Shown piece by piece: positions 8,046-42,588 of a stretch of DNA of 51,148 nt. The notes below the pieces were generated by a model. That model worked only from the letters and a program-made list of their open reading frames with translations. It was not told where the DNA came from and searched no databases. Source of the DNA: a virus; IMG/VR virus record IMGVR_UViG_3300044464_000110, positions 1 through 51,148 of that record; one strand, given 5' to 3'. Position numbers and translations under genes: made by a program. Position 1 is the first letter of the stretch. Each line of letters starts with the position of its first letter.

Positions 8046-8047
8046 GC

Positions 8048-8227
8048 ATGGACGGCAAGGCAACGCGCACCAGCTACGGCGTCACGGCTATTGAGTGGGT
8101 AACTTGCGGCAGCATTCCGATTCGCTGGTATCCGAACCGGCGCACAATGCTTCGTCACTGGAAGTCGCTGAGACGCAGCGGCACGCGGGCGCTGAAGGTT
8201 ACGCAGGAGGTCCACGATGGACGATGA
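8048..8227 (+). CDS. Hypothetical protein (59 aa)
   Basis: ATG 8048 lies 2 nt after the preceding stop. Basic (many Arg and Lys), with an aromatic beta-like core (GVTAIEWVTCGSIPIRWYPN). It overlaps the start of the next gene by 11 nt, and that gene's CAGGAGG site lies in its last codons. No family was recognised. Confidence 0.45.
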   Translation: MDGKATRTSYGVTAIEWVTCGSIPIRWYPNRRTMLRHWKSLRRSGTRALKVTQEVHDGR

Positions 8228-8990
8228 GGCTTTGCATGACATCGCAGCCGGCTGTCAGTACCGGCCCGAGGAGTACGCAGTCATGGCCCGCGAACTCCTC
8301 GCCCTCCGCCGCGCCGACGCGGTGAAGCAGGCGCTAATCGAGGCCGCGACACGCTGGCGTTACGCCGCGGCGCACGTAACTGTGCATGCTGTCGGCGGGC
8401 ACGACCAGCGCATTGAAGATGAGTATTCCGGCGCCGCGTGCGCGCTGTGTCGAGCGTTGGACCGCGCCGCCAACCACGCCTCGCCCGCCCCCGCCGAAGC
8501 CGCCGCGCCGATGCGGGAGGGCGGGGCGGAGACGATCCCGCGCGGCGAAGGTTGGCGTGTCACGGCTCCGTGGCGCATCGGCTTCGGCCCACACGACGGA
8601 GACGCCTTGGGGGCTGCTGTCGAGAATGCCATCCGCGCCGCCGAGGCCCGCGTGCGCGCCGAGTGCTGGCCCGAGACCGAGAAGGCCATGCGCGAGCGCG
8701 ACGCGGCGGAGAAGGAAGTCGAGCGACTGAATGGCTACGTGCAGCGACTCACCACCCAGCGCGATGCCGCGCGGCGCGAGCGGGACGCGGCCACGGCCCA
8801 GCAGACGCGGGCGGCGGGCGTTGGCAAGGCGGCAGAATGCCAGGCTGCGCGTACCGCCTTGGCGTGCGAACCGAGCGCGCTGCGCGATGGCGGAGAAGGC
8901 TATTCCGTCGTGCGCGCCCTCGACGCCTACCTCGCCACGCGGCCGGGCGCGGCGGCTATCATGTCGACGACACCGGAGGAAACCCGATGA
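8217..8990 (+). CDS. Hypothetical protein with coiled coil (257 aa)
   Basis: ATG 8217 follows a strong CAGGAGG site by about 7 nt. The N-terminal region (MDDEALHDIAAGCQYRPEEY) resembles small phage accessory proteins. Residues of about 140-200 form a long charged coiled coil (EKAMRERDAAEKEVERLNGY, then QRDAARRERDAA). Two CxxC-like Cys positions (ACALC) lie near residue 78. Probably a cytoplasmic oligomeric protein; its role is unknown. Overlaps the next start by 4 nt. Confidence 0.6.
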   Translation: MDDEALHDIAAGCQYRPEEYAVMARELLALRRADAVKQALIEAATRWRYAAAHVTVHAVGGHDQRIEDEYSGAACALCRALDRAANHASPAPAEAAAPMREGGAETIPRGEGWRVTAPWRIGFGPHDGDALGAAVENAIRAAEARVRAECWPETEKAMRERDAAEKEVERLNGYVQRLTTQRDAARRERDAATAQQTRAAGVGKAAECQAARTALACEPSALRDGGEGYSVVRALDAYLATRPGAAAIMSTTPEETR

Positions 8991-9115
8991 CCGCGCGTCT
9001 CTTCTTCATGCTCATGTTCCCCATGGTCCTGGCCTACGTCATCGCCGCCCAGCACTTCGAGAGCCGCTCCGAGCTGCGGCGCTGGATGGGGGCCAACGTG
9101 GAGTGGGTGCGATGA
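8987..9115 (+). CDS. Small single-pass membrane protein (42 aa)
   Basis: ATGA-coupled on both sides, with a GGAGG site (8976-8980) about 6 nt upstream. Residues 4-21 (RLFFMLMFPMVLAYVIAA) form one hydrophobic helix, followed by a charged tail. Too small for family assignment. Confidence 0.55.
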   Translation: MTARLFFMLMFPMVLAYVIAAQHFESRSELRRWMGANVEWVR

Positions 9116-9519
9116 GATCCGGGCCCTGGATCTATCGCCACGTTAAGGGCGGAGGCTGGCGCGCGCAGGTGACGGTCCGGCGTGTCCCGACTCGCGCGTG
9201 CTTCGCCGACACGGACTACGAAGGCAAGGCAGGCGCACTCAGGGCGGCGCAGGCGTGGGTGGCGGAGGAGCGCAGACGGCGCGGGCTGCCGCTGGGGATC
9301 GCCTGCGTCCAGACAGCCAGGCGGATGCGAGGGCGGTCGCGCAGCCTGCCAGTCGGCATCACGCGACATGGCGGCCCGTGGGGCGGCTTCGATGTGGGGC
9401 TGCAGGTCGCTGGTCACCGGAAGCGCCGCTGGGTGCGCACGCTGGCGCAGGCGCTGCGGGTGCGCGCGCTGCTGGAGACCGTCATGCTGGGTGGCCGTAG
9501 GCGCGCGCCCATGCCTTGA
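9112..9519 (+). CDS. AP2-like DNA-binding protein, two repeats (135 aa)
   Basis: Two related modules are visible. Residues 4-50 (WIYRHVKGGGWRAQVTVRR, then a helix GALRAAQAWVAEERRRRG) and residues 78-125 (SLPVGITRHGGPWGGFDVGL, then RTLAQALRVRALLE) each give a three-strand sheet plus helix as in AP2 domains of phage DNA-binding proteins and HNH endonucleases. The protein is very basic. No HNH nuclease motif is present, so it is either a free AP2 protein or a remnant of one. ATGA-coupled to the gene before. Confidence 0.55.
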   Translation: MRSGPWIYRHVKGGGWRAQVTVRRVPTRACFADTDYEGKAGALRAAQAWVAEERRRRGLPLGIACVQTARRMRGRSRSLPVGITRHGGPWGGFDVGLQVAGHRKRRWVRTLAQALRVRALLETVMLGGRRRAPMP

Positions 9520-9592
9520 AAGGCGGCCCGCGTCTGGCACCATAGCCCCGGGGTCTTAACCCGGCACAGTGCGCCCGCGCGCGCGCCGGGCC

Positions 9593-10162
9593 ATGGCGCG
9601 CTCCGCGGGCGACAGGCGGCGGTTGGCGAAGAAGACGATCCGGAAGGGGGGCAAGGGGTGGCGGCCTGCCAGCCGCGCGCACCGGACGGAACGGACGCCA
9701 CAAAAGGCCGTCCCGCCGGAGCTGCGCTTCAGCGACTGGCGCGGCCGGTTCCTGAAGACACTCAAGCGCTGGCCTCACAACATCACGCGAGCCGCTGCGG
9801 CTGGCCGCGTGTCCAGGTCTCATGCCTACGCGCTGCGCGAGAAGGACCGCGCCTTCTCCCTCGCGTGGGACGAGATCCGGGACGGCGCGCGCGACGAGGC
9901 TGGGCATGCCCTCTACCACCGGGCGGTGCACGGCTGGAACGAGCCCGTGTTTCACGAGGGCTGCGTCGTGGGGCGGCGGCGCGTCTTCAACGCCGCGCTC
10001 CTGATCTTCGTCAACAAGTGCCTCGACCCGCGGGTCTACAACCTGGCCCCTGGCGATGCGGGCGAGGCCGGGTCCGGCGGGCGCGAGGTCGCTGCCGAGT
10101 TCGGGCGGGCGCTCGCTGGCATGTTCAGGGCCGTGCCGAAGCCGGCGGCGGCGAGCGCGTGA
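9593..10162 (+). CDS. terS: Terminase small subunit-like protein
   Basis: TerS recognises phage DNA and loads the large subunit for packaging. After a basic tail, residues of about 50-80 form a helix-turn-helix (ITRAAAAGRVSRSHAYALRE). It is followed by AFSLAWDEIRDGARDEAGHA, a G-W-NEPVFHEG strand pair and FNAALLIFVNKCLDP, the layout of terminase small subunits of this type. ATG 9593 is used; GTG 9569 is an alternative. The next three small genes separate it from TerL. The 73 nt upstream contain no gene and are a plausible site for a late promoter, but no clear one is seen. Confidence 0.75.
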   Translation: MARSAGDRRRLAKKTIRKGGKGWRPASRAHRTERTPQKAVPPELRFSDWRGRFLKTLKRWPHNITRAAAAGRVSRSHAYALREKDRAFSLAWDEIRDGARDEAGHALYHRAVHGWNEPVFHEGCVVGRRRVFNAALLIFVNKCLDPRVYNLAPGDAGEAGSGGREVAAEFGRALAGMFRAVPKPAAASA

Positions 10163-10458
10163 CGGCCATGCAACGCAACCGACCCATGCCGCGCCGCTCC
10201 AGGCCGGCTGAAGCCGTGCCCGAGAGCAAGCCGACGGGCGCCAGCGTCCTGTGCCTGCACTGCGGCCGCGTTGGCCACCCCGGAGCCTTCGACCGCGCGA
10301 CCAGCGCGGTGCGCCTGCTCCGCTGCCCGGTCTGCCGCTCCGAGCTGATCGACACGTCGGCGCTGCTGGAGCGGGACCCGGGGTTCCTGTTCGGCGCGCA
10401 CAACCTGTGGAACTTGGACCTCGCGGAGCCGCGGGGAGCATCGGAGCAGCACGCGTGA
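10159..10458 (+). CDS. Zinc-ribbon protein (99 aa)
   Basis: The GTG overlaps the TerS stop (GTGA); ATG 10168 is an alternative start. Two CxxC knuckles (CLHCGRVGHPG and CPVCRSELID, about 19 residues apart) form a classical zinc ribbon after a basic Pro/Arg N-terminus. It sits in the packaging region, so it may help DNA recognition or transcription of late genes, but this is an inference. Confidence 0.65.
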   Translation: MTAMQRNRPMPRRSRPAEAVPESKPTGASVLCLHCGRVGHPGAFDRATSAVRLLRCPVCRSELIDTSALLERDPGFLFGAHNLWNLDLAEPRGASEQHA

Positions 10459-10658
10459 CAGGCAAGTCTCACGTCCGACGACTGAGCCCGGAGATGCGCG
10501 CCTGGATTGAGGAGCTTCGGGATTCGATCCGAAGCCAACTCCCGCTGTCGCGCGAGCTGATCGGAGATGGCCCAGAAGACGACCCGCCTGACGGAACCGA
10601 GGGCTGGCGACGCCTCGCTGCCGATCTCGGCGTGGATGTATCGGACGACGCTCCATGA
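10455..10658 (+). CDS. Hypothetical protein (67 aa)
   Basis: GTGA overlap with the zinc-ribbon gene and ATGA overlap with the next. Helical and amphipathic (SPEMRAWIEELRDSIRSQLP), with an acidic C-terminus ending DVSDDAP. No family was recognised. Confidence 0.5.
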   Translation: MTGKSHVRRLSPEMRAWIEELRDSIRSQLPLSRELIGDGPEDDPPDGTEGWRRLAADLGVDVSDDAP

Positions 10659-10915
10659 GGTTCCCCGTCGGCCTCAAGCGCCTGCTGGGCCACCAGCCAG
10701 CCGCGCCACCTGCAGCGCCCGCGGCCGCGGGTTCCACCTGCAGCGCCTGCGGCAGCGGGGTGACCGAGCCGCGCCGCTACGGCCTGACGCTGGAGACCAC
10801 CCAGGGCGTGGCGTCCGGACTGCAGCGCCTCGTCGACACCGGCCTGTTCGGCCAGACGCCCTCGGAGGCGGCCGAGCGCATCATCGCGCACCACCTCGAC
10901 GACCGGACGCGCTGA
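10655..10915 (+). CDS. Small protein with CxxC and RHH-like C-terminus (86 aa)
   Basis: Begins MRFPVGLKRLLG, then a Pro/Ala linker and CSAC. The C-terminal half (LQRLVDTGLFGQTPSEAAER) has the strand-helix-helix rhythm of ribbon-helix-helix proteins, in which a LVxTGLxGxTxxEAAExII signature is common. It lies 4 nt upstream of TerL, so it may regulate or assist packaging gene expression; this is an inference. Confidence 0.55.
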   Translation: MRFPVGLKRLLGHQPAAPPAAPAAAGSTCSACGSGVTEPRRYGLTLETTQGVASGLQRLVDTGLFGQTPSEAAERIIAHHLDDRTR

Positions 10916-15007: not shown

Positions 15008-15186
15008 GCGTCATGGCCCACCCGCTGGGAGACGGTTCCGGGCACGGCCGGAGTGAGCGTGCGTCGGTCGCGTCCGTGCACCATTTCCAGCGGCGTAACC
15101 CGTCGCTTCCGGAGCGTGCGCGGCCTCGTGCCCGCAGCGCCGGCGCTCGCTGTCCGGGCCGACGCTCGGCGGCGGGCAACTATTGA
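15004..15186 (+). CDS. Doubtful small basic protein (60 aa)
   Basis: A GTGA-coupled frame that ends just before the portal ribosome site. It is Arg/Ser/Pro-rich with no secondary-structure pattern. It fills an otherwise gene-free 190-nt interval, which may simply be leader sequence of the portal gene. Confidence 0.25.
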   Translation: MSVMAHPLGDGSGHGRSERASVASVHHFQRRNPSLPERARPRARSAGARCPGRRSAAGNY

Positions 15187-15197
15187 GGAGGACGAGC

Positions 15198-16712
15198 GTG
15201 GCCTACGACACGGCACCTGCGGGACTGGGGTTCGACTCCGTGGCGCTGAAGGACCTCGATGTCCCGTGCGCCAACTGGCGGGCCATGCAAGACCACTGGG
15301 AGCTGGTCCACGACCTGCGCGGCGGCACGTTGACGATGCGCGAGCGGCGCACGCGCTGGCTTCCGCAGGAGGACGGCGAGAGCAACGACCACTACGACAC
15401 GCGCATCCGGCGCACCGTGCTCTACGAGGGCTACGCCAACACCGTCGACGACATCGCAGGCAAGCCGTTCTCCGAAGAGGTCACGGTCACTCCCGATACG
15501 CTCGACGAGCAACTGCAGCCCATCGAGTCCGACGCCGACTACGAGGGTACTACGCTCACGCAGTTCTGCAAGGACGTGTTGGTCGACGGGATCGACCACG
15601 GGCTCGTGCACCTGTTCGCGGACTACCCGGTCGACAGCGCAGGCGTCCTCATCGAGGACATCCGCGCGCAGCAGCTTCACCCCTACTTCACGCACGTTAG
15701 CGCGGCCAACCTGATCTGGTGGGCCTCGCGCAAGGCCAGCAACGGCCGGCGCATCCTGACGGAGATGCGCGTCCGGGAGTGGGGCGATCCCGAGCCTGGG
15801 CGCGAAGCCAAGGCCGGGGCCTACCGCATCCGCGTGTTCCGCGAGGCGGGGGCCCACTTGCCCGTCGAGTGGGAGCTCTTCGAGAAGTCCGCCGAGACAT
15901 GGGCGTCGGTGGGCGCCGGCCGGCTGTCAGTCTCCGAGATCCCGCTGGTGACGGGGTACTTCCGGAAGACGGGCTTCATGCAGGGCCGGCCGTGCCTCGA
16001 GGGCCTCGCCTGGCTCAACCTCCTGCACTGGCAGAGCAGCAGCGACCAGCGGCACTCGCTGCACTTCGCGCGCGTGCCCATGATGTACGAATCCGGCACC
16101 GCGACCGAGGACGTCGCCAAGCCCATCGTGGTCGGCGCAGGCAAGTGCATCCGCAACGTCAACCCGAATGCGAAGCTCACCGTGGTCGAGCACTCTGGCG
16201 CCGCGATCGAGGCGGGGCAGAGGGACCTCGACATGCTCGAGTCGCGCATGGAAGCGATGGGGGCCGAGCCGCTCGCGCAGAATCGGCAGGACGTCACGGC
16301 CACGGGCCAGGTCATCGACGCGACCCGGCAGATGTCGAAGCTCGAGGCGTGGGTGCGCTCACTCGAAACGCTGCTGTGGCGCGGCTACCAGCTCGCGGCC
16401 GCATACATCGAGGTCGAGCTGCCCGAGGACTTCGCCGTCAAGATCTTCGACGACTTCGGCCTGCCGGCCAAGGCGCAGGCCGAGTGCGACTTCCTGCTGC
16501 GCCAGCGCCAGGCGGGCGAGCTGTCGCGGAAGACCTTCCTGCGCGAGGTCGCGCGACGCGGGGTCTACGCCGAGGACTTCAACGTCGACGACGAAGCCGA
16601 GGCCATCGCGGTCGAGGGGCCGCGGCTGGGCAACCTGTTCGGGGGGTCTGGCGGCCAGCCACCGCCCGAGGACGCGCCGCCCTTCGATGAGGGCGGCAAG
16701 CAGGCCGCGTGA
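15198..16712 (+). CDS. Portal protein, DUF4055-like
   Basis: The dodecameric portal forms the DNA entry channel of the head. GTG 15198 is chosen because TTGAGGAGGACG sits just upstream. The N-terminal DHYDTRIRRTVLYEGYANTV and DDIAGKPFSEEV, the central HWQSSSDQRHSLHFARVP and the ASKLEAW-type helices near residue 380 match DUF4055 portals. At 504 residues it has the expected size. It overlaps the MuF-like gene by GTGA, the usual portal-MuF order. Confidence 0.85.
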   Translation: MAYDTAPAGLGFDSVALKDLDVPCANWRAMQDHWELVHDLRGGTLTMRERRTRWLPQEDGESNDHYDTRIRRTVLYEGYANTVDDIAGKPFSEEVTVTPDTLDEQLQPIESDADYEGTTLTQFCKDVLVDGIDHGLVHLFADYPVDSAGVLIEDIRAQQLHPYFTHVSAANLIWWASRKASNGRRILTEMRVREWGDPEPGREAKAGAYRIRVFREAGAHLPVEWELFEKSAETWASVGAGRLSVSEIPLVTGYFRKTGFMQGRPCLEGLAWLNLLHWQSSSDQRHSLHFARVPMMYESGTATEDVAKPIVVGAGKCIRNVNPNAKLTVVEHSGAAIEAGQRDLDMLESRMEAMGAEPLAQNRQDVTATGQVIDATRQMSKLEAWVRSLETLLWRGYQLAAAYIEVELPEDFAVKIFDDFGLPAKAQAECDFLLRQRQAGELSRKTFLREVARRGVYAEDFNVDDEAEAIAVEGPRLGNLFGGSGGQPPPEDAPPFDEGGKQAA

Positions 16713-17836
16713 CCCCGCAGCCCCCCGGCATCGACGAGCACCTGCTGGCCGCTCTCGACGGGCGCCCGGTCGACGACGTGCTCTTCGACCTCGGGATCCG
16801 CCGAGCCCTCTTCCTCGAGCGCTACAAGAGCGGCGAGGTGCGGAAGTTCGTCGCGGCCCTCAACGAGGACGTGTTCCCCGACCTGCTCGACAAACTGGAG
16901 GCCCGCCTGCGGCGCATCGACGACCGCGGCGAGGACGTCGGGATTGAGTCCACCGAGCGCCTCAAGAAGCTGGCCACCGAGCTGCGGGGCACGCTGGCCG
17001 AGGGCATCCACGCGGCGTCCAAGCCCCTGCGGGACGAACTGAAGGAGCTGGCTGTCAAGGAGTCGCGCTGGCAGAAGGCCGTGCTGCAGGCGAACGTGCC
17101 GCTGCAGGTGAGCATGACCGGCCCGAACCTGCCGCTGTTGCGCTCCATCGTGGGGCGGCGGCCCTTCGCTGGCGCGACCCTGGACCAGTGGTTCGGGGAC
17201 CTGACCACCAAGGCGCAGCGCGGCGTCGAACGCCAGCTCACCATCGGGCTCACCCAGGGCGAGACGGTGCCCCAGCTCGTGCAGCGGATCCGGGGGACCA
17301 GAGCGCTGGGGTTCAGCGACGGGGTGCTGGAGGCCACACGCAGCGAGGCGGAGCGCCTCGTGCGGACGGCGGTCGGGCACGTCAGCAACAACGCCAGGCT
17401 GGAGACCTTCCGGGCCAACGCCGACGTCGTCGCCGGGCGCGTCTGGCACGCGACCCTGGACGAGCGGACCTGCCCGATCTGCGGCCTGCGGGACGGCCAG
17501 GTCTTCGACCTCGAGGACGACACGGCGCCGGTCCCGCCGGCGCACCCCAACTGCAGGTGCGTCCTTCAGGCGCGCACGAAGACCTGGAAGGAGCTGGGCA
17601 TCCGGCTCCGGGACGCGCCACCAGGAGTCCGGGCGTCCATGGACGGCCCGGTGAAGGCGACGACGACCTGGTCCGATTGGATCGACGGGCCGGGCAGCGA
17701 CCACGCCGCCGAGGCCCTCGGCCCCGGGCGCGTGGCGCTGTGGCAGGCCGGCAAGATCACCCTCGACGACCTCGTGTCCCAGCGGGACCGGATCCTCACG
17801 CTCGACGAGCTTGAGAAACTGTCAGGTGGCAGTTGA
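16709..17836 (+). CDS. Head morphogenesis protein, SPP1 gp7/MuF-like (minor capsid)
   Basis: Helical N-terminal half (EARLRRIDDRGEDVGIES) followed by the diagnostic C-terminal region: RTAVGHVSNNARLETF, then TLDERTCPICGLRDGQVF and HPNCRCVLQ. The Cys/His positions there are typical of the MuF domain. It acts inside the procapsid near the portal. A short helical C-terminal extension (TLDDLVSQRDRILTLDELEK) follows. About 90 nt separate it from the scaffold gene. Confidence 0.85.
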   Translation: MTPQPPGIDEHLLAALDGRPVDDVLFDLGIRRALFLERYKSGEVRKFVAALNEDVFPDLLDKLEARLRRIDDRGEDVGIESTERLKKLATELRGTLAEGIHAASKPLRDELKELAVKESRWQKAVLQANVPLQVSMTGPNLPLLRSIVGRRPFAGATLDQWFGDLTTKAQRGVERQLTIGLTQGETVPQLVQRIRGTRALGFSDGVLEATRSEAERLVRTAVGHVSNNARLETFRANADVVAGRVWHATLDERTCPICGLRDGQVFDLEDDTAPVPPAHPNCRCVLQARTKTWKELGIRLRDAPPGVRASMDGPVKATTTWSDWIDGPGSDHAAEALGPGRVALWQAGKITLDDLVSQRDRILTLDELEKLSGGS

Positions 17837-17927: not shown

Positions 17928-18728
17928 ATGGCCCTGAAGGCCCGACTGGCCTCGCTCGATGCTGTGCCTGACGCCCTCCGCGGCCTCTACAAGGCCGACG
18001 CCGACGGCAAGTCGTTCATCCTGGACGTCGAGTCCGTCGGCGACTTCAAGCTCGATGACACGGCCAAGCTGCGCGGGGCCCTCGAGGCCGAGCGCGCGCG
18101 CGGCGACGAGCTGAAGGGCGCGCTGCACCTGTTCGACGGTATCGACCCCAAGCTGGCGCGCGCGGCCATGACCAAGGCTGCCCAAATGGAGAAGTGGACG
18201 CCCGAGGACAAGGTCCGCGAGCAGATGGAGGCCCACGCCCGCCAGCTCAAGGAGAAGTTCGACGGTGAGATCGACGGCGAGCGCAAGACGGCCGCGCGCT
18301 ACCGCGAGATCCTGGAGCGCAAGGTCGTCGACGCCGCGGCCACGGCCGCGATCTCCAGGCTGAAGGGCGTGCCGGAGCTGCTGCTCCCGCACGTCAAGAA
18401 CCGCGTCAAGGTGGTCGAATCCGACGGCGACTTCATCGCCCGGGTTCTCGCCGACGACGGCAAGACATTCGCCGTGACCCGCAAGTCGGGCGCGACGGGC
18501 GACATGAGCATCGAGGAACTGGTCGAATCCATGAAGGGCAGCGACGTCTTCGGTCGCGCCTTCGAGGGCTCCGGCGCCGCGGGAAGCGGATCCGGGGGCT
18601 CTGGCGGAGCGGGACGCTCCAGCGGCCGGGTCACGATCACACGCGCTGAAGCCCGCAACCCGGCGGTCTTCAAGGCGCGCGAGGAGGCTGCCGCGAAGGC
18701 CGGCACCACGGTGGAGTACGTCGAGTAG
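17928..18728 (+). CDS. Scaffolding protein (266 aa)
   Basis: An acidic, highly helical protein just upstream of the coat gene, as expected for a scaffold. The LRGALEAERARGDELKGAL and EAHARQLKEKFDGEIDGER coiled-coil regions, a short beta segment (VVESDGDFIARVLAD), a Gly/Ser-rich linker and a basic C-terminal tail (RVTITRAEARNPAVFKAREE) fit phage minor structural or scaffolding proteins. No protease was found, so scaffold exit rather than cleavage is likely. Confidence 0.75.
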   Translation: MALKARLASLDAVPDALRGLYKADADGKSFILDVESVGDFKLDDTAKLRGALEAERARGDELKGALHLFDGIDPKLARAAMTKAAQMEKWTPEDKVREQMEAHARQLKEKFDGEIDGERKTAARYREILERKVVDAAATAAISRLKGVPELLLPHVKNRVKVVESDGDFIARVLADDGKTFAVTRKSGATGDMSIEELVESMKGSDVFGRAFEGSGAAGSGSGGSGGAGRSSGRVTITRAEARNPAVFKAREEAAAKAGTTVEYVE

Positions 18729-18838: not shown

Positions 18839-20053
18839 GTGACCAACGTTCTCGGCAACTACGTCCCCATCCTGTACGCCAACAAGGCCCTCGAGGCGCT
18901 GATGAAGCGTCTCGGCCTCGCCGCCCGCGTGAACCGCGGCTACGACGCCGAACGCCGCAACGTCGGCAAGGGCAAGGTCATCAGCATCAAGAAGCCGTCG
19001 GTCTTCACGGCGCAGAGCGCCCCCGGCTCGGCGGTTGACCTGAGCGTCGGCACCGTGGACATCACGCTGTCCACCTTCAAGGAAGTGCGCTTCGCACTGC
19101 CGGACAACGAGCAGGCCTGGACCGGCTCCGACATCATCACGGACCACATCATGCCGGCCGGCTACGCCATCGCGGACGCCATCGACCTGGACCTGGCCGC
19201 GCTGATTCCGACCGTGGCGCACGCCTACGTCGAGCCCTCCGCGGCCACCGCGGCCACGATGGCCGGCATTCTGGCCGTGCAGAAGGCGCAGTTCGACCTC
19301 AAGGTGCCGATCGACGACGAGGCCGCGATGCACTTCATGATCGGCGGCAAGGAGCAGGCCGACCTGCTCGCTCTGTCGGCCTTCGCGCAGTGGCAGGGTG
19401 CCGGCCAGGTCGGCCTCGACACGCAGCTCCGCGGCTTCCTGGGCCGCCGCTACGGGTACGAGTTCTTCGCCAACCAGAACCGCGGCACGCAGGCCTACGC
19501 CGACATCACGGACTTCCTGGGCGCGGGCCCGACGGCCGCGGCCGGTGCGACCTCCATCGCGGTCACGGCGCTCGGCACGACCGAGGCCTACAAGAAGGGC
19601 TCGATCCTGAAGTTCACGTCGGGCGCCGAGAGCGGCAACCAGTACGCCGTGACGGCGGACGTGACGATGTCCGGCGGCGGCGGCACGTTCGTCATCAACC
19701 CGGGCCTGCGCGTGGGCTGCACCTCGGGCGACACCTTCGCGATCAACGACCTGGCGGCCCTGAACCAGGGCGCGGCGGGCACGGGCGCGCTGGACAACGT
19801 CACGGACAACCTCAACCTCGCCTTCCATCGCGACTGGGCCGCCGTCGGCTTCGCCGCGCTGCCGGACGAGACGATCCGCGACCTCGGCGTGCGGGTCTTC
19901 ACGGTGCAGGATCCGGTGACGGGCATTTCGCTGCGCGCGCGCATCTTCTACGACGGCGCGAACAGCAAGACCGTGTGCGTCGTCGACGCCCTGTGGGGCG
20001 TGCGCGAGATCGACGCCGACCGCGCCTGCCGCTACGAGATCAAGAACTCGTAG
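18839..20053 (+). CDS. Major capsid protein, P22 coat-like
   Basis: GTG 18839 lies 7 nt after GAGGAACT. The N-terminus (TNVLGNYVPILYANKALEAL) and the following KGKVISIKKPS and VDITLSTFKEVRFAL strands are typical of P22-type coat proteins with an HK97 fold. Residues of about 228-305 form an inserted beta module (ATSIAVTALG...KKGSILKFTSG...GDTFAINDL) like the P22 insertion domain. The C-terminus returns to the core (ISLRARIFYDGANSKTVCVV). At 404 residues it is of normal length. Confidence 0.9.
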   Translation: MTNVLGNYVPILYANKALEALMKRLGLAARVNRGYDAERRNVGKGKVISIKKPSVFTAQSAPGSAVDLSVGTVDITLSTFKEVRFALPDNEQAWTGSDIITDHIMPAGYAIADAIDLDLAALIPTVAHAYVEPSAATAATMAGILAVQKAQFDLKVPIDDEAAMHFMIGGKEQADLLALSAFAQWQGAGQVGLDTQLRGFLGRRYGYEFFANQNRGTQAYADITDFLGAGPTAAAGATSIAVTALGTTEAYKKGSILKFTSGAESGNQYAVTADVTMSGGGGTFVINPGLRVGCTSGDTFAINDLAALNQGAAGTGALDNVTDNLNLAFHRDWAAVGFAALPDETIRDLGVRVFTVQDPVTGISLRARIFYDGANSKTVCVVDALWGVREIDADRACRYEIKNS

Positions 20054-20962: not shown

Positions 20963-21490
20963 ATGGCGCACGTCGTCGAGACTGGCTCGGGCCTGAGCAA
21001 CGCGAACGCGTACCTCTCGGCGGCAGAGGCGGACCTGTACTGGGCCGACCACGGCGCGCCTGACGACTGGACGGCTGCGCTCACGGCCGAAAAGGAGGAG
21101 GCCATCCGGGCCGCCACCGAGGCGCTCGACGCACTCTACGGCCAGCGCTGGCGCGGCAGCCGCGTGCAGTCCGCCCAGGCACTCGACTGGCCCCGCACGA
21201 GCGTCGAGGACGACGATGGCTTCACGGTCGAGTCCACCAGTCTGCCGCTGCGCCTGAAGAGCTCCTGCGCCATCCTGTCCTTCGAGGCGCTGACCGGGGG
21301 TGGCGAGACCTCCTCCCTCGTGCCGGACATCACCGACACCGGAGCCCTGTCCGCCCTGACGGAGACGCTGGGCCCGCTCTCGCGCACGCAGCAGTGGGTT
21401 GGCGGCCGCAGCCAGGTGAAGTGGCGCCCCCTGGTCGATGGCCTGCTCCGGCCCCTGATCCTGGCGGGCGGGACGGTCATCCGGGCGTGA
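20963..21490 (+). CDS. Head-tail connector, DnaT-like (DnaT_2) protein
   Basis: A 175-residue protein begins AHVVETGSGLSNANAYLSAA, then AEADLYWADHGA, and has YGQRWRGSRVQSAQALDWPR. This is the signature of the neck proteins often annotated DnaT-like. It is an all-helical head-completion adaptor at the portal. Followed by a GTGA-coupled gene of the same neck module. Confidence 0.8.
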   Translation: MAHVVETGSGLSNANAYLSAAEADLYWADHGAPDDWTAALTAEKEEAIRAATEALDALYGQRWRGSRVQSAQALDWPRTSVEDDDGFTVESTSLPLRLKSSCAILSFEALTGGGETSSLVPDITDTGALSALTETLGPLSRTQQWVGGRSQVKWRPLVDGLLRPLILAGGTVIRA

Positions 21491-21849
21491 CCACCGAGCT
21501 CGACACCGCCTTCGCCGACATGGCCCTCGAGATGGTCGAGGCGTTCGGACCGACGGCCATCTTCACCGACGTGCCTGGCACCTACGACCGCGTGACGGGC
21601 AGCGCGCCGGCGGGCGCGGTCCTCGGGCCCTTCAAGGTCTCGCCGCCGTTCCCCTACGAGCAGCGGTACATCGACGGCGACGTCATCCAGCGGCGCGACC
21701 TGCGCGTCATCCTGCCGGCGAAGGGCGCCTTCGTGCCGCTGCTGGGCATGACCGTCTCGCTCTCCGGCGTCTCGCACATCGTGGTGACCGTGCGGCCCTA
21801 CCAGTCGGGCGACGACATCGCGGCCTACGAACTGCAGGTGCGCGCATGA
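21487..21849 (+). CDS. Head closure / head-tail adaptor protein (120 aa)
   Basis: GTGA overlap with the connector gene. Short helical start (FADMALEMVEAFG) followed by a beta barrel: ATYDRVTG-like strand pair, GAVLGPFKVSPPFP, RRDLRVILPAKGAFVPLLG and SHIVVTVRPYQSGDDIAAYE. The position, size and strand pattern fit head-closure (gp16-like) proteins. Confidence 0.7.
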   Translation: MTTELDTAFADMALEMVEAFGPTAIFTDVPGTYDRVTGSAPAGAVLGPFKVSPPFPYEQRYIDGDVIQRRDLRVILPAKGAFVPLLGMTVSLSGVSHIVVTVRPYQSGDDIAAYELQVRA

Positions 21850-22268
21850 CCGGCACCAGCAACATCGAGGAGTTCAATCGCGAGGTGCAGGCCTGGGCCG
21901 AAACGATGCCGGCCAATGTGGTCGTCACGGCGCAGAAGAAGCTGGCCTTCGACGCCTTCGCCGGCATCGACGACAAGATGCCCGTCGACACGGGGCACGC
22001 GCGCTTCAACACGCAGGTCTCCGTCAACGACTACGCGCGCGGCGAGATCCCAGGCGTCGACCCGACCGGCAGCGTGGCGCGCGGGCGCGCCGAGGCCGCG
22101 CTGGCCGACATCCCGCCCTTCGCGCTGGTCGTGATCCACAACTCCGTGCCGTACATCGAGCGGCTTGAGGGCGGCAGCAGCACGCAGGCCCCCTCCCCCG
22201 GCGGCATATTCGACCTCACGGCCCACGAACTGCTCGCGACCTTCGACGTCGAAGGCCTGCCCCCGTGA
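21846..22268 (+). CDS. HK97 gp10-like tail completion protein (140 aa)
   Basis: ATGA-coupled. It has a helical N-terminus (NIEEFNREVQAWAETMP), MPVDTGHARFNTQVSV and a C-terminal VVIHNSVPYIERLEGGSS. The DTG...SVxYxxxLE pattern is the signature of HK97 gp10-like neck and tail proteins. It precedes the expected tail terminator, which here is inside the next giant gene (4-nt overlap). Confidence 0.8.
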   Translation: MTGTSNIEEFNREVQAWAETMPANVVVTAQKKLAFDAFAGIDDKMPVDTGHARFNTQVSVNDYARGEIPGVDPTGSVARGRAEAALADIPPFALVVIHNSVPYIERLEGGSSTQAPSPGGIFDLTAHELLATFDVEGLPP

Positions 22269-25200
22269 CGACCTACACCGCCATCGCCACGCGCGCCTTC
22301 ACAGTCAGCCCGGTGCCAGATCACCCGCACGCGATCCTGAAGGTCTTCCTGCCGAACGGCACGCCGAACCCCGAGGGGCACCCGGCGTGCATCTACAACA
22401 TCCTCGAGAACGTCATCGACTGCGACATGATCGACGTGATCGACGAGAGCCGGCCGGAGCTCGCGGCGATCCTCGATGCCCACAGCGCCCTCATCCTCGT
22501 GGCGAGCCCGGTCGCGCGTGGCGACAACACGGGCAACACGGAAGCCAGCGTCGCCTACGACCCGGACAACAACCTGTTCGGGCCCAGCTACCGCGGCAAC
22601 GGATGCAACTGGGCGCCGACGCTGGGCGTGCCCACGGGCCTGCCGACGGGCACGCATCCGATGGCCGACCCGCTCTGGTTCATGACCATCAAGTCCTACC
22701 CGCAGGCGGTGCAGTACGTCGTTACGCAGCTCGTGGCCGAGTTCAATCTCGACCCGACGCGGCTGTGGGGCGGCGGCAGTTCGGCGGGCGGCCTCGGCGT
22801 GCTCGCGACGATGTGGGGCCCCAACCGCGCGCCGCAAATGTTCCCCGGCGGCAGCGGGCAACTCGCGGTCGACACGCGCGCCGCACTGCGTTGCGCAGCG
22901 ATCGAGCGCACGCAGACGTTCGGGCCCGTCTTCCAGCAGACCGGCGCCGGATGGTTCTTCCCGCAGGTGCCGGGCACGGGCACCGGCTACAAGGTCAACG
23001 CCCCGGGCGGCCTGCCCATCGGCACCACCGTGATCCCGGTCGACACCGGCACCGGCACGATCATCAAGGGCGACTTCCTCGTGCTCTCGGGCATCGGCGA
23101 CCGGCCACGCGTCTCGGTGGGACTGGCTGGCGGGCAGATCACGATCGCTTCGCCGCTCACCGCGGCGCTGGCCGACAACGCGAACATCACGATCCTGAAG
23201 ACGTGGGACTGGCCCAGCTTCCCGATCTCGATCGGCGACCAGACGAACCTCTTCGAGATGGCGCCGCTCGTCATGGCCGAGGCGCCCGCAGAGTACGCGG
23301 ACAACGTGGCGAACAAGAAGTGCTGGATGCGCTACCTCGCGCCCGCGACCGCTGGCGCGCCCTACGACAAAACGCACCTGACCCACGACGAGCCGAACGT
23401 CCACAGCGTGTGGTCTGGCCGCGCGATGAAGGAGCTCATGGGCACGGGCCTGCGGCTCGTGGTCAACGGCGCCGACGCGGCCGATGGCGTGCACGAGGAC
23501 GCTGTGATCCTGACCGGCGACGCCGACGTCTACGCCGACATGATGGCCACGATCTACGAGTGGCTCGAATACGAGTACCTCGGCGACGGCGGCGGCGGTG
23601 GCAGCGAGCCCGAGGGGGTCGCCTGGTACACGCGCATCGACCGGGCGATCCGCCAGCACTTCGGGACTGAGGTGGAGGACGCCCTCGTGATCCCGGCGGT
23701 CTACGACAACGAGAGCGAGGCCGTGGCCCTGGCGTCCGCGCGCTGGGCCCGCGTGCGGGTCGACCACGCGGGCACGAATCAGACGCACTTCGGGTCCATC
23801 CCCAAGTACCGGCGCGCCGGAGACCTCGTCGTCGAATGCCGCTGCCGGGTAGTCCAGGGCGACGGCTCGGCCGTGCAGCTCGCCGACGCGGTCGTGGCGG
23901 TCTTCCGCGGCGCCACCGTGGGCGACGACGTGAACGTCATCTTCCGGCAGCCGCGCGTCGACGGGCCGCACAGGGACGGCGCCTGGTGGGTTGCGACCGT
24001 GCGCGTCCCTTGGTACAGCGACGAGTCCGTCGAGCACAGCGAGGCCGGCCCGGACGATGCGGCCGCCACGTTCGGCGACATCACCGAGGCGCTGCGGGCG
24101 CGCTTCCAGAGCTACGTTGAGGCGCCCCTAGGGCTGACGACGCAGTACGACGACCAGGCCTTTGCGCCTGAGCTGGGCCAGGCCTGGGCGCGCTTCAGTG
24201 TGCTCCTGGGGAGCCAGATCCACCCCGAGGGCAGCGAGCGGCAGTGGTATCGGCAGATCGGCATGGCGGTGGCCCAGGTCTTCGTGCCGGCTGGGATCGG
24301 CCATGGCCAGGCCCTCACCATCGTCGACACGATCGACGAGGCCTTCCGGTCGACCAGCCAGCAGGGCGTGGTGCTGGGCGAGCCGGCGCTGCGCACGGTT
24401 GGTCGCGACGGCGCGTGGTGGCAGCTCAACGTGACGCTGCCGTTCCAGGCGCCCATCACCGTCGCCGACGACGTGGTCGACAGCATCTACCCCACGGGCT
24501 CGCTCTACGAGCCGCCCACGGGCATGGTGCTGTACGGCCTCTCGCACTTTCCTTCCGACGCCCTGTCCTACGTGGACGCGCTGGCCAACGGCGTCCCCGG
24601 AGGTGGTGGCGGCGGCGGCCCGCCGTCGGACTACCTGCCGCTGGACGTCAGCGTCGCGAAGGTCATACCGGCCGCGCTGACGGCGTGGACCGACACCGAC
24701 ACGCTCGTGACCTTCGCGGTGCCGCTGCCCGACCTGCTCGTGGCCGACCTTGCTGGGCGCCCGGAGCTGTCGCTCTCCGGGGCCTCGATCTGGCAGGCCC
24801 GCACGCTGCAGAAGTGGCCCAGCGGCTTCGCGAAGTGGGCGCTCTTCAAGGCGCGGGTCAACCCGGCCACCACCACGACCCTCACGATCAGCGGGTCCGG
24901 CGTTGGCAAGTCGGCCGGGTCCGACCTCCTGAGCCTGACGGGCGGGGTCTACACGCTCGCCACGGGCGCCGTGACGGCGACGGTGAAGGTCCCGTCCTTC
25001 AATCTCTTCGACAGCGTCAAGATCGGCGCGCTCACCATCATGGCGTCCGGCACGGGCGGCCCAGGCCTCCTCGGCACGATGGCAGACGGGGTGACGGGCC
25101 TCGTCATCCGCTCCACGGCGGTCGGCCGCGTCGAGGACAACGGCCCCGCCAGCGCGTGCCTGCGGATCGACGGCGAGCTGGCGGCCAGCACCGCCCCGAC

Positions 25201-28018
25201 CGTCACGGTGGCGAAGTTCGCATGCCGCTTCGTTGCGGCCGCGCAGTCGCCGGACATCGCCGTCACGTTCACGGTGCAGAACGACACCTGGCACCTGAAC
25301 GCCTCGCCCTCGACCGACGACAACAAGCATCTGCAGCTCGGCTGGGTCGAGATCGGGTTCCGCATCAACGCGGGCGCCAGCCGCACGCTCGTGTGTTGCA
25401 ACCCTGGCTCCGAGACGGCGCAGAGCATCGGCGGCGTCGGGCAGCCCAAGGACGTCTACTGCTACCAGAAGTACAGCACGGCAGCGACCACCGACGTCTC
25501 GGGCACGGGGCCGGCGTACAAGCCGCACATCACGAAGGACGGAGCCGGCGTCTTCACGCAACAGGGATGGGAGAAGCGCGACGACAACGTCCTCACCGTG
25601 GACCTGCCGGCCGGGAGCTGGCCCCAGCACGGGTACCTGAACCTGTCCGGCGCGTCCGCGGGCTGCACCATCGGCATCCGGCACATGCCCTTCTTCTGGC
25701 CCGCATCGCTGCGCGGGAATGACAACGGGTCGGTGGGCGTCGGCCTCTTCCCCCGCTACAACCCGGACAAGTACGTCTTCCCGTGGCGGATGCACGAGAG
25801 CCGGGAGTGCGTCTTCTCGTTCCACGCCGGACCGATCGGCGCGCTGCCGTCGACCAGCCTTCCGTCGCAGGTCGTCAAGCGCCTCGACTACCCGCTGTAC
25901 GGGCGTCTCGCCGACTACAGCAAGTACGACGCGGCGGGCGTCTTCCCCTATCGGCTGGCGACCATAGCGGAACAGCAGGAGCTCTACACCGCGCTGGGGA
26001 TCGCGCACACGCCGGCCGTCAGCAACGAGAGCATGCAGGTGCTGCGCTTCCGCGCCTCGAGCACGACGGGCGGCGACAACAACCACGCGGCCGGCGAGGT
26101 CCGGCTGGTCGACGCGTTCCTGCGCTACGGCAAGGGCGGGCAGCTCTTCCGCGGCCTCGACATGGCCGTCTACCTCGCCGAGTGGGCCATCCCGCGCTCT
26201 TCGGACTTCGCGGACGCGGACGACCCTGGCGCCAGCAACGACGGGACGCTTGCCCACACCACCGGCACCTTCGACGACGGGAACAGCGACCAGCACCTCT
26301 ACGACGAGAACATGCTTGACGCCTACTTCCTGACGGGCGACGAGCGCCTGCACGCGTCGCTGTTCGACGAGGCCGACGTGCTCGCCGCGGTGACTTTCTC
26401 GGTCAACGGCAACGAGCGCGGGAACTACCAGTGGTTCCGCGCGGCCTCGCTCGTCGCCGAGTTCCTGGCGGATCAGAGCCCGACGGAAGCGGCGACGCTC
26501 AAGGCCTCGCTCAAGGCGCGGATCACGGCGCACTCTGCCACCACAGTGGACGTCGACGCGGTTTCCTCCGGGTCGGGGTGGGACAACGCCACAGCCGGCG
26601 CGGGCGCGCGCGGGTACTACGCCAGCTCGCTGCAGAACCTCGGCGAGCAACTGCCTGGCGAGTTCTTCGTGGCGCGTGGCTTCGTGAGCGCACGCCTCGG
26701 TCCCGTCGCCTTCAAGATCACGCAGCGGTACCTCACCGTGGCCGACAGCGACGGCGTCAAGGCCCAGGGCCGCAAGAAGGACTTGGCCAAGTGGACGAAG
26801 AACGAGCTGCTGGCGACGGCCACCGGCCCGGACGTGCCCGCCGGCATGCTCGGGCAGAAGTGCCTGATCTACAGCTACCAGATCCACCTGCAGACGCCGG
26901 GCGCCGACGACGCCAGTCACCCGGGCGGATTCCAGCACCCCGACTTCCACTCAGTGCTCACGGCTGCGGCTGAGGGGTGGCGCGAGACAGCCGACGCGGC
27001 CTACATCGCGATGGGCGTCGCCCACATCGCGGCCTTCGTCGCGGACGGGAACGTCGCCGTGCTTGACTCGGGCCTCGAGGTGCAGGACTTCGTGCAGGCC
27101 TACCACGACTTCGTGACGCCGCCCGAGGAGAGCGAACCGCCCGATCACCTGCCGGGGATCGTGGCCCACGTCTACAACCTCGGGATCAATGATCACCCCG
27201 ACCCGACCACGGAGCAACTGGTCGCGGTGCTCGACGAGCTTGACGGCCTCGGCTACGTGCCGCGGTTCGGGATCACGCTGCAAGACCAGACCGGCGACCC
27301 GCAGATCCCACTCGACGACGTGATCGCGACCACGAGCACCTACGACGATCAGATCGACACGCTCGCCCAGGCGCTCGTGGAGTTCGACAAGCCTGTCTTC
27401 CTCGCGATCGGGTGGGAGTGCAACGGCCACTACACCACCGCGTACTACCCTGCCGCGTTCCGCAAGATCGTGGACATGGTCCGCGCCGCGGGCGCGACCA
27501 AGGTCGCCTTCGTGTGGGGCATCGAGGCCACGCCCGCCAGCAACTACGACGACTGGTATCCGGGCGACGCCTACGTCGACTGGTTCGCCGTCGACGTCTT
27601 CCGCAAGGACAAGTACCTCACCGCCGGGCACCCGGTGAACACGCACTTGGTGACCTTCCTGGCCTACGCGGTGGCGCACAGCCGTCGCGTGATGCTGCTC
27701 GAGGCCGAGGCCGTGGGTGAAGACATGCCGGGCGGCACGATCTTGCCCGATCCCGCGGACGGCACGGCGCAGTACGCCTACTGGTTCCACGCGTTCTTCG
27801 CGCTGCTCGCGGCGAACCCGATCATCGGGTGCTTCGAGTACACGAACCAGGACCTGACGGGCAGCGGGTACGACGTGCCCGGCATGGGCTGGAAGAACGG
27901 CAGACTCGACGTCAACAGCGACGTCTTCTTGCCCTGGGTCGCAGAGATCAGCCAAGAGAAATACATCGACTCGTCGCGGCGCGACCTGCTGCTGCACTGG
28001 TCAGAAAACCACGGTTAG
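22265..28018 (+). CDS. Giant fusion: esterase + two tail-terminator-like modules + RGL-like lyase + GH26-like barrel (1917 aa)
   Basis: Module 1, residues 1-440: alpha/beta hydrolase with WGGGSSAGGLG (nucleophile S173) and candidate His H410; a beta insert lies at about 243-318. Gly linker 440-452. Modules 2 and 3, about 452-592 and 617-733: tandem related domains resembling DUF4128 tail terminators (WAR(V/F)xV, YR-x-G, RDGAWW then a closing strand). Gly linker about 778-790. Module 4, about 790-1615: rhamnogalacturonan-lyase-like beta domain (WPSGFAKWALFK) plus an alpha/alpha toroid (QHLYDENMLDAYFLTGDERL). Module 5, about 1625-1905: GH26-like TIM barrel with IGWECNG (E1718, acid/base) and VMLLEAEA (E1813, likely nucleophile). 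It occupies the terminator slot between gp10-like and tail-tube genes, and no other terminator gene is seen. Probably a virion-bound polysaccharide-degrading protein. Confidence 0.85.
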   Translation: MTTYTAIATRAFTVSPVPDHPHAILKVFLPNGTPNPEGHPACIYNILENVIDCDMIDVIDESRPELAAILDAHSALILVASPVARGDNTGNTEASVAYDPDNNLFGPSYRGNGCNWAPTLGVPTGLPTGTHPMADPLWFMTIKSYPQAVQYVVTQLVAEFNLDPTRLWGGGSSAGGLGVLATMWGPNRAPQMFPGGSGQLAVDTRAALRCAAIERTQTFGPVFQQTGAGWFFPQVPGTGTGYKVNAPGGLPIGTTVIPVDTGTGTIIKGDFLVLSGIGDRPRVSVGLAGGQITIASPLTAALADNANITILKTWDWPSFPISIGDQTNLFEMAPLVMAEAPAEYADNVANKKCWMRYLAPATAGAPYDKTHLTHDEPNVHSVWSGRAMKELMGTGLRLVVNGADAADGVHEDAVILTGDADVYADMMATIYEWLEYEYLGDGGGGGSEPEGVAWYTRIDRAIRQHFGTEVEDALVIPAVYDNESEAVALASARWARVRVDHAGTNQTHFGSIPKYRRAGDLVVECRCRVVQGDGSAVQLADAVVAVFRGATVGDDVNVIFRQPRVDGPHRDGAWWVATVRVPWYSDESVEHSEAGPDDAAATFGDITEALRARFQSYVEAPLGLTTQYDDQAFAPELGQAWARFSVLLGSQIHPEGSERQWYRQIGMAVAQVFVPAGIGHGQALTIVDTIDEAFRSTSQQGVVLGEPALRTVGRDGAWWQLNVTLPFQAPITVADDVVDSIYPTGSLYEPPTGMVLYGLSHFPSDALSYVDALANGVPGGGGGGGPPSDYLPLDVSVAKVIPAALTAWTDTDTLVTFAVPLPDLLVADLAGRPELSLSGASIWQARTLQKWPSGFAKWALFKARVNPATTTTLTISGSGVGKSAGSDLLSLTGGVYTLATGAVTATVKVPSFNLFDSVKIGALTIMASGTGGPGLLGTMADGVTGLVIRSTAVGRVEDNGPASACLRIDGELAASTAPTVTVAKFACRFVAAAQSPDIAVTFTVQNDTWHLNASPSTDDNKHLQLGWVEIGFRINAGASRTLVCCNPGSETAQSIGGVGQPKDVYCYQKYSTAATTDVSGTGPAYKPHITKDGAGVFTQQGWEKRDDNVLTVDLPAGSWPQHGYLNLSGASAGCTIGIRHMPFFWPASLRGNDNGSVGVGLFPRYNPDKYVFPWRMHESRECVFSFHAGPIGALPSTSLPSQVVKRLDYPLYGRLADYSKYDAAGVFPYRLATIAEQQELYTALGIAHTPAVSNESMQVLRFRASSTTGGDNNHAAGEVRLVDAFLRYGKGGQLFRGLDMAVYLAEWAIPRSSDFADADDPGASNDGTLAHTTGTFDDGNSDQHLYDENMLDAYFLTGDERLHASLFDEADVLAAVTFSVNGNERGNYQWFRAASLVAEFLADQSPTEAATLKASLKARITAHSATTVDVDAVSSGSGWDNATAGAGARGYYASSLQNLGEQLPGEFFVARGFVSARLGPVAFKITQRYLTVADSDGVKAQGRKKDLAKWTKNELLATATGPDVPAGMLGQKCLIYSYQIHLQTPGADDASHPGGFQHPDFHSVLTAAAEGWRETADAAYIAMGVAHIAAFVADGNVAVLDSGLEVQDFVQAYHDFVTPPEESEPPDHLPGIVAHVYNLGINDHPDPTTEQLVAVLDELDGLGYVPRFGITLQDQTGDPQIPLDDVIATTSTYDDQIDTLAQALVEFDKPVFLAIGWECNGHYTTAYYPAAFRKIVDMVRAAGATKVAFVWGIEATPASNYDDWYPGDAYVDWFAVDVFRKDKYLTAGHPVNTHLVTFLAYAVAHSRRVMLLEAEAVGEDMPGGTILPDPADGTAQYAYWFHAFFALLAANPIIGCFEYTNQDLTGSGYDVPGMGWKNGRLDVNSDVFLPWVAEISQEKYIDSSRRDLLLHWSENHG

Positions 28019-28030: not shown

Positions 28031-29224
28031 ATGGCCAGCGGCGCACTACTCAAGGTCAGTTACAAGTCCGAGAAAGACGCGGCCGGCGGCACGTATGGCG
28101 TCGACCCTGGCGCGGGCAGCGTCCAACTGCGCGAGGTGCGCTACAGCCGCTACGGCGTCGACATGACGCCCGCCTTCGCCGAGACGGACGAGATCCGCAG
28201 CGACCGGCAGACGGTCGACGCGATCATGACCGACTTCGGCGCGGCCGGGCAGATCGAGGCGCCCTTCGCCTACCTGATCCACGACGACTTCATCCGCGCG
28301 GCGATGCTCGTCACCAGCGACTTCCAGGCCGGAGTTCTGCTCGCTGCGCTGACCAATCTGACCTTCGCGGCCGCCGGGAACACGATCACGCGGGCGTCGG
28401 GCGACTTCGTGGCCGCCGGCATCGTGGCCGGTGGCTTCATCCGCATCACGGGCGCCGCGCAGGCTGGCAACAACTCGGTCTGGAAGATGACCAACGTCAC
28501 GACGACGGTCATCACGGTCTCGGGCGGAACGCTGGTGAACGAGTCGGCCGGCGCCTCGGTGGTCATCAAGCAGAGCCAGGACATCAAGCCCGGCACGACG
28601 ATCCACAGCATGATGTTCGAAGCGCAGTTCACCGACCTGTCGAACGAATACGCCGTTGCGACGGGCATGATGGTGTCGCGCTGGGCGCTGTCCGTGCCGA
28701 CGAACGGGCTGATCAAACAGACCTTCGACACACTGGGCAAGACGGTGGCGTCCGCCAGCGCGACAACGGGCACCGGCGCCATCATCGCGGCGCCCACGAG
28801 CGTGCAGTTCTCGTCGGTCAACAACATCGACAAGGCCTGCGTCGCGGGCGCGGTGGTGTCCCTGACGGCCGTGCAGTTCAGCCTCGACAACCGGCTGCGC
28901 CGACACCTGGCGATCGGGACGCTGGGGCCCATCGACCTCGGCATGGGTTCGATCGGGCTGGAGGGCAGCTTCGAGGCCTACTATGCCAGCAAGGCCGACT
29001 GGGACAAGGCGAAGGCCAAGACCGACAGCTCGCTTTGGCTCTCGTTCGTGGACGCCGCGAACGACCGCTACGTCATCGAGTTTCCCGCGATCGTGTACAC
29101 GAGCGCGACGCGCACGGCGGGCGGCAAGGACAGCGACGCAGTCGCAACCATCGGCTTCCGCGCGAAGCGCAGCACCGCGTCCTATGACCTGACGATGATG
29201 CGCTTTTCCAAGATTGCGCCGTGA
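28031..29224 (+). CDS. Major tail tube protein (397 aa)
   Basis: ATG 28031 follows AGGAGG by 7 nt. Typical tail-tube features are LLKVSYKSEKDAAGG at the N-terminus, RSDRQTVDAIMTDFGAAGQI and C-terminal strands IEFPAIVYTSATRTAGGKDS. Residues of about 105-190 are an inserted beta module (GNTITRASGDFVAAGIVAGG then IRITGAAQAGNNSVWKMT) common in tail tube proteins, probably exposed on the tail surface. Confidence 0.85.
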   Translation: MASGALLKVSYKSEKDAAGGTYGVDPGAGSVQLREVRYSRYGVDMTPAFAETDEIRSDRQTVDAIMTDFGAAGQIEAPFAYLIHDDFIRAAMLVTSDFQAGVLLAALTNLTFAAAGNTITRASGDFVAAGIVAGGFIRITGAAQAGNNSVWKMTNVTTTVITVSGGTLVNESAGASVVIKQSQDIKPGTTIHSMMFEAQFTDLSNEYAVATGMMVSRWALSVPTNGLIKQTFDTLGKTVASASATTGTGAIIAAPTSVQFSSVNNIDKACVAGAVVSLTAVQFSLDNRLRRHLAIGTLGPIDLGMGSIGLEGSFEAYYASKADWDKAKAKTDSSLWLSFVDAANDRYVIEFPAIVYTSATRTAGGKDSDAVATIGFRAKRSTASYDLTMMRFSKIAP

Positions 29225-42455: not shown

Positions 42456-42475
42456 AGCCTTCTCCGGCCCCAACT

Positions 42476-42493: not shown

Positions 42494-42516
42494 TGCAACT
42501 ACCTGTCCACACGCTG

Positions 42517-42546: not shown

Positions 42547-42550
42547 ATGC

Positions 42551-42581: not shown

Positions 42582-42588
42582 TGCCGCC

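Follow-up and report, generated by a model that had tools for sequence, protein, structure and literature searches.

The virus record IMGVR_UViG_3300044464_000110 is a metagenomic stretch of 51,148 bases, analysed here over its full length (the window). At 22265-28018 on its plus strand it carries one uninterrupted frame of 1917 codons, whose GTG start codon overlaps the stop of the preceding gene. A sequence-only reading had placed three different carbohydrate-active modules in the product of this gene, namely an alpha/beta hydrolase, a rhamnogalacturonan-lyase-like beta domain with an alpha/alpha toroid, and a GH26-like barrel. It had suggested that the three could jointly deacetylate, cut and trim a single branched polysaccharide of the host; the joining of the modules in one polypeptide is supported here, and their combined action stays hypothetical. 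The frame is as that reading claimed, and all of its quoted motifs that were looked for are found in the 1917-residue protein. The GH26 module stands, as does, through its homologs, a lyase fold of the PcRGLX type; the hydrolase is putative, as it has no family. That reading did not include the core of the protein, residues 454-735, which consists of two tandem tail-terminator domains. The whole gene is a tail-terminator fusion composed of a putative esterase, the tandem terminator, a PcRGLX-like module and GH26.

The tail terminator is the strongest Pfam and PHROGs match of the protein and extends over two stretches, with PF13554 scoring 63.6 bits against a cut-off of 27. Domain 1 (residues 454-591; 23624-24037, plus strand) was detected by a hidden Markov model (HMM) at 1e-29, and domain 2 (residues 599-735; 24059-24469, plus strand) by phrog_179 at E 1.2e-40 and PF13554 at 2.6e-17. 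The two domains are 28% identical over 137 residues. AlphaFold, supplied with 20 sequences, modelled both with a predicted local distance difference test score (pLDDT) of about 90. The model of residues 454-588 matches the T1 terminator 9l0e_N (Z 13.9, root-mean-square deviation 2.5, 128 residues aligned). That of residues 599-735 matches 2gjv_A (Z 12.9, deviation 2.9, 131 aligned), and further the gene transfer agent (GTA) terminator 6tba_4A (Z 12.2), lambda gpU (Z 11.1) and R4C 8gtf_k (Z 10.8). A match of phiCD508 gp53 that spans both domains was rejected as a tandem precedent, as the paper on it describes gp53 as a hexameric ring (PMC11948020).

The surrounding genes, by Pfam and PHROGs, are a siphovirus-type late operon: portal (15183-16712), head morphogenesis (16709-17836), scaffold (17928-18728), major head protein (18839-20053), Ad1 (20963-21490), Hc1 (21394-21849) and, directly upstream of the fusion, a tail completion or Neck1 protein (21846-22268, plus strand; phrog_169, 2.9e-26). 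Directly downstream is the tail tube protein (28031-29224, plus strand; PF18906, 2.1e-22; phrog_290, 3.9e-41), followed by a hub gene (phiJL001 Gp84-like), NlpC/P60, an Rcc01698-like tail protein and a DUF2793 fibre-type gene. With the gene order Ad1, Hc1, Neck1, fusion, tail tube, the fusion occupies the exact terminator slot, which in Nanhaivirus phages is filled by a lone terminator of about 136 residues. The gene in this slot is the tail terminator of the phage, duplicated and with modules on both flanks. A purely bacterial origin of the gene was rejected, since the terminator sits in the middle of the frame. Elsewhere in the window, an open frame of 660 codons (41844-43826, minus strand) has no PHROGs or Pfam match and lies opposite open plus-strand frames; it may be a shadow frame.

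At the C-terminus, residues ~1628-1917 (27146-28015, plus strand) form the GH26 module. It is recognized by PF02156 (E 3.9e-4), at 20.3 bits barely above the cut-off of 20.2, and by phmmer matches to the solved beta-1,3-xylanases AlXyn26A (7xjr, 6.6e-17) and XYL4 (2ddx, 7.4e-12). The loss of catalytic residues is not seen here: E1718 (27416-27418, plus strand) and E1813 (27701-27703, plus strand) align with the catalytic glutamates of both enzymes. Among 20 Planctomycetota homologs these columns hold glutamate in 18 and 19, respectively, the rest being gaps or one arginine. By entry name and alignment, the second glutamate of AlXyn26A, which matches the E1813 column, is the residue changed in 7xs3 (E243A). 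Which of the two serves as acid/base and which as nucleophile in the family is in part presumptive. The window module thus shares sequence family and both catalytic columns with AlXyn26A and XYL4, but unlike them it is part of a phage structural protein.

Between terminator and GH26 lies the PcRGLX-like module (residues 790 to ~1617; 24632-27115, plus strand), to which the family assigns a RIFT barrel, a beta sandwich and an alpha/alpha part. The window copy is too diverged for a direct Pfam match: no model was found at E<=1, and PF19501 did not match at E<=10. The proposed lyase-like beta domain with toroid is nevertheless borne out, beyond chance, by Planctomycetota and viral homologs. Homologs occur in 27 of 246 Planctomycetota genomes, 15 of them full-length (36-41% identical) in six genomes. 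All eight Planctomycetota homologs that were scanned match both PcRGLX_1st (PF19501) and PcRGLX_2nd (PF21345) at E<=1, six exceeding the Pfam cut-off for PF21345 and four that for PF19501. A viral copy, in record L253, is 66% identical to the window module and also exceeds the PF21345 cut-off. The family profile reaches the solved structure 5xq3 of PcRGLX, an exo-rhamnogalacturonan lyase, at E 0.003. The relationship to PcRGLX is therefore one of domain family, seen through bacterial and viral homologs, but it is remote and the window copy carries phage-specific changes. In control phyla, where an empty result counts merely as negative evidence, homologs were found in 0 of 299 genomes (phylum of Mesorhizobium), 0 of 149 (phylum of an Acidimicrobiia metagenome-assembled genome, MAG) and, weakly, 1 of 99 (phylum of a Desulfobacteraceae MAG). 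A single-sequence scan of bacterial genome contigs with the module gave no match, the homologs having emerged from profile-based and whole-genome searching, and an AlphaFold model from three sequences (mean pLDDT 28) was not used. As a side observation, five Planctomycetota genomes (G109, G156, G051, G091 and G072) carry two to four paralogs each of this family; one paralog has a PA14 domain as its N-terminal part, and another looks coiled-coil there.

The viral copies are informative about how the lyase-like module travels. Two further viral records, L253 and L254, match it over their common part. In L253, a protein of 1976 residues (4917-10844) joins an N-terminal phrog_376 tail protein (5e-104) to a C-terminal PcRGLX-like module. 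The PHROGs of the head and tail genes on this contig (phrog_212, phrog_394) differ from those of the window. By eye, the L253 protein also has capsid-type beta inserts and a glycine linker; the L254 version is truncated. The window and L253 copies differ by dN 0.26 and dS 0.64 (nonsynonymous and synonymous divergence, NG86), and in a midpoint-rooted tree they form one clade (100/100) separate from all 15 bacterial copies. On these comparisons, the lyase-like module appears to be a virion cassette under moderate constraint that is mounted on different structural proteins.

Residues 1-445 (22265-23599, plus strand) constitute the putative esterase, which has one Planctomycetota homolog. A serine-elbow-like motif spans G169-G176 and contains S172 and S173. 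The sequence-only reading had named S173 and H410 as likely catalytic residues. S173 lies in a G-x-S-x-G-type motif and the serine elbow aligns in the bacterial homolog, whereas H410 has no counterpart there. The sole histidine that aligns is H380, a candidate located in a segment that is not significant alone. The homolog, in Planctomycetota genome G051, covers the catalytic part and has a similar serine elbow and, by eye, a candidate signal peptide. A search of the 246 Planctomycetota genomes matched this module in two, and in the second only an inserted domain was matched, within a capsid protein. This insertion (residues ~219-313; 22919-23203, plus strand), detected by phmmer, is of capsid-protein type. 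It matches open reading frames (ORFs) of capsid proteins in other phages (L175, E 5e-12; L074 and L124, 1.7e-8) and one in L252 (1.7e-9) that is a phrog_283 major head protein. Relatives of this domain lie within the major capsid proteins of L175, L074, L009 and L252 and within a P22-coat-family protein of a Microcystis phage.

Fusions to the tail terminator recur in other phages. A 12-row terminator alignment was too diverse for scanning, so loci were gathered with tail-tube alignments, two of which were seeded with tubes of fused-terminator phages, taking the best 80 loci per search, and every ORF was then searched with an iterated terminator HMM. A terminator was detected in 179 of 194 sequences, giving 132 distinct terminator ORFs, mostly of 125-157 residues. 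Ten of the 132 have at least 280 residues, a proportion that is not a population rate because of the seeding and the best-80 selection. They represent nine architectures, as the ORF of L018 is a truncated copy of that of L023 (610 residues). Only in the window fusion is the terminator flanked by modules at either end; in all others the additions are N-terminal only. The longest of these, L121 (1145 residues; 4555-7989), has about 1000 residues of short repeats, with one terminator found in the locus. L041 (1119 residues; 3107-6463; identical in L115) has a head with DUF2341 and a weak GH16-like match, and L033 (571 residues; 610-2322) a weak F5/8 type C head. Heads that look jelly-roll-like by eye are found in L002, which is ctIqW946 of Manatee Spring (600 residues, annotated as 546), and in L110 (486 residues). 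L137 has two terminator genes (3428-3835 and 6298-7989) separated by several genes, the distal one, of 564 residues, being fused to 440 residues of repeats, and L017 has 295 residues. Seven ORFs of 164-232 residues (L049, L153, L164, L090, L082, L158 and one of 164 residues) were not counted as fusions, as several look like over-called starts.

Several of the N-terminal additions consist of stalk-like 'SGSL'-type repeats, each about 30 residues long, that end in a distal head. L041 and L033 are 77% identical over 423 residues of L041, comprising stalk and terminator, with the last 107 residues identical and the heads unrelated, as would be expected for a host-contact device. Across the nine architectures a second terminator is in tandem in one chain in three, encoded by a separate gene at the locus in three, and not found in three. 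In a tree of 89 terminator domains, based on few columns and with unsettled bootstrap, the starred branches force at least five label changes, and the second domains of the window and ctIqW946 pair with support of 95/93. A prophage-like region of Planctomycetota genome G161 also carries a tandem terminator in one chain, adjoining the tail tube gene and without enzymes (L249:8066-9601 from the longest start, the likely start being near 8726).

Taken together, we propose that the terminator ring serves as a chassis for neck-mounted appendages that are here enzymatic and that probably act on the surface polysaccharide of a planctomycete-like host. We give this reading a probability of about 0.64, and we infer activity, substrate, host and location in the virion from sequence. 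The ring that terminators build on top of the tail has six members, as described for R4C, T5 (PMC11784142) and phage 812 (PMC12886913). In our model, the two fused terminator domains of each chain would take the place of two of the six subunits, so that the ring at the head-tail junction would be a pseudo-hexamer of three chains. Such a three-chain stoichiometry is made plausible by the T5 ring, which has C3/pseudo-C6 symmetry and sits on a ring of three tube proteins with a duplicated domain (PMC11784142). The putative esterase on one side and the PcRGLX-like and GH26 modules on the other would then, judging from domain order, hang from the ring on poly-glycine linkers (residues 442-447, 23588-23605, and residues 779-785, 24599-24619, both plus strand and evident in the sequence), surrounding the neck. 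In that position they would cleave polysaccharide, whether on the cell surface or extracellular, as the tail tip seeks its receptor. The tail tip has its own hub and fibre genes, and the neck modules are therefore more likely accessory: they may deacylate (if the first module is an esterase) and cleave polysaccharide near the particle, or hold on to it.

The distribution of homologs provides a lead to the host. One Planctomycetota genome, G051, has homologs of all three enzyme modules, which fits action on a related polysaccharide. GH26 matches occur in 15 of the 246 Planctomycetota genomes, including all six that have full-length lyase-like matches; by hand arithmetic a random draw would give this with a chance of about 2 in 10^8, although related genomes are not independent draws. 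The hosts recorded for Nanhaivirus relatives are Dinoroseobacter and Pseudanabaena. A planctomycete is the probable host, or else a bacterium that shares planctomycete polysaccharides; we offer this as a lead and not as a result. The homologs are secreted-looking bacterial proteins from genomes with several paralogs, and nothing in the sequence fixes the timing of action. The enzymes might act in release, or in spreading through the extracellular matrix once the cell has lysed, instead of entry. We regard this as quite unlikely, as an enzyme anchored to a structural protein stays with the particle, an arrangement that suits entry at least as well.

Another question is whether the modules cleave at all. 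They could be adhesins that bind polysaccharide and raise the chance of adsorption, in the manner of the carbohydrate-binding modules (CBMs) on lactococcal neck fibres. Other terminator fusions bear lectin-like or CBM-like heads without a recognized enzyme (L033, L110 and L002, described above), some of the invariant positions of the lyase-like module are altered, and weak binding to host cells is reported for a neck CBM from a 936 phage (PMC6669499). Against this, both catalytic glutamates are retained in GH26, and of 53 polar or aromatic positions invariant in the 15 bacterial homologs the lyase-like module keeps 43 (L253 keeps 42). On balance, we find a purely adhesive role unlikely and prefer enzymatic appendages.

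It is also conceivable that virions lack the intact fusion, either through cleavage of the modules or through a terminator made separately from an internal start, leaving the enzymes free. The glycine linkers are long and flexible, and there are in-frame starts with purine-rich upstream stretches, for example at residue 475, though that one lies inside domain 1. Residues 445-455, ahead of domain 1, contain no listed start with a good ribosome-binding site. Moreover, fusions to structural proteins recur among other phages, and viral lyase-like modules occur on two different tail proteins. Separation from the particle is on these grounds very unlikely, and a neck-mounted fusion is favored.

Several observations weigh against enzymatic appendages on a terminator ring. 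The alpha/beta hydrolase is not confirmed: no Pfam, NCBIfam or PDB sequence match was found for residues 1-445, and the AlphaFold model of residues 1-448 is poor, with pLDDT nearly all below 50. In a fold search with the model of residues 1-775, nothing usable came back for residues 1-445; a new fold cannot be argued from that blank. Ten of the 53 invariant positions are changed in the lyase-like module, six of them to the same residue as in L253 (R1019D, Q1176M, K1304L, Q1308A, E1343Q and E1371D). By sequence this is a phage-specific version of the module, which may cleave with a different specificity or may have turned into a binding domain that does not cleave. In T5, a C-terminal His-tag on the terminator led to aberrant polymers (PMC11784142), and by analogy C-terminal additions could disturb the ring. 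The portal has relatives in 3 of the 246 Planctomycetota genomes and in 1 of 209 genomes of Pseudomonadota; as it is about as rare in Planctomycetota as elsewhere, the host assignment is soft. Finally, scans of viral contigs revealed the whole architecture in no other record, and single-sequence scans of these contigs with each of the four modules gave no match.

An architecture seen once, in a metagenomic record, raises the question of an assembly chimera between a planctomycete gene and a phage gene. Taken in 20 successive blocks of 100 codons, the GC content at third codon positions is 0.89-0.97 in all but the last block, which is short and has 0.83, and it stays at about 0.93 over every module joint. 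The modules are in frame, linked by glycines, and flank the terminator on both sides. The nearest relative of the lyase-like module is the viral one, whereas bacterial ones reach 39%, and other terminator fusions exist. A chimera is, in our judgment, extremely improbable.

Virion-associated depolymerases and tailspikes carry polysaccharide-degrading modules, typically at the tail tip. The window protein resembles them in having such modules on the virion but differs in that these are predicted at the head-tail junction. The tail terminators lambda gpU, T5 p142, RcGTA and R4C (PF13554, phrog_179) share its fold, gene slot and sequence profile; they are single subunits of about 130-160 residues, whereas the window has two domains per chain and large modules at both ends. 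A further parallel is the neck passage structure (NPS) found in lactococcal phages (936 and TP901-1). The NPS is likewise neck-mounted, with modular, exchangeable distal domains, CBMs and host contact away from the tail tip (PMC6669499, PMC10747895). However, the NPS is a separate protein with a BppU-like N-terminal domain at the portal or adaptor, while in the window the terminator would be the anchor, with GH26 and a PcRGLX-like module in its cargo. Pfam, PHROGs and NCBIfam scans of the whole window protein found the terminator and GH26 only, the BppU model not having been tested by itself. Extra neck proteins are also known as collar whiskers or spikes in T4 and XM1, pre-neck appendages in phi29 (PMC10491603) and neck decoration proteins in phage 812 (PMC12886913). 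In the passages available these are separate proteins, not fused to the terminator, and enzymes are not mentioned. A terminator fused to enzymes or stalks was not found in the literature searched, which covered titles and abstract openings, with subscription journals largely outside coverage. Within that coverage, neck appendages and virion enzymes are already known, and the terminator as their anchor was not found described.

Searches for virion enzymes usually focus on tail tips and spikes, and annotation by best domain would hide a case such as this one: 'tail terminator' would miss the enzymes, and 'GH26' would miss the anchor. The recurrence of fusions suggests a broader possibility, which we consider evenly balanced between right and wrong, that the terminator ring is a general chassis for unrecognised neck appendages. 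Several lineages would have duplicated the terminator and equipped one copy with a stalk bearing interchangeable sugar-binding heads or, in the case of the window, with a set of polysaccharide-processing enzymes. If so, the virion would bear a collar for receptor contact or digestion at the head-tail junction in addition to its tail tip. If the terminator is the mounting point, many large 'terminator' ORFs of uncultured phages would be host-contact devices, and their swapped heads would be informative on host surface sugars. It also makes the stoichiometry testable, with three tandem chains instead of six. Phages of Planctomycetota are little known, and the fusion may offer an early indication that phages linked to this phylum process polysaccharide with modules borne on the virion.

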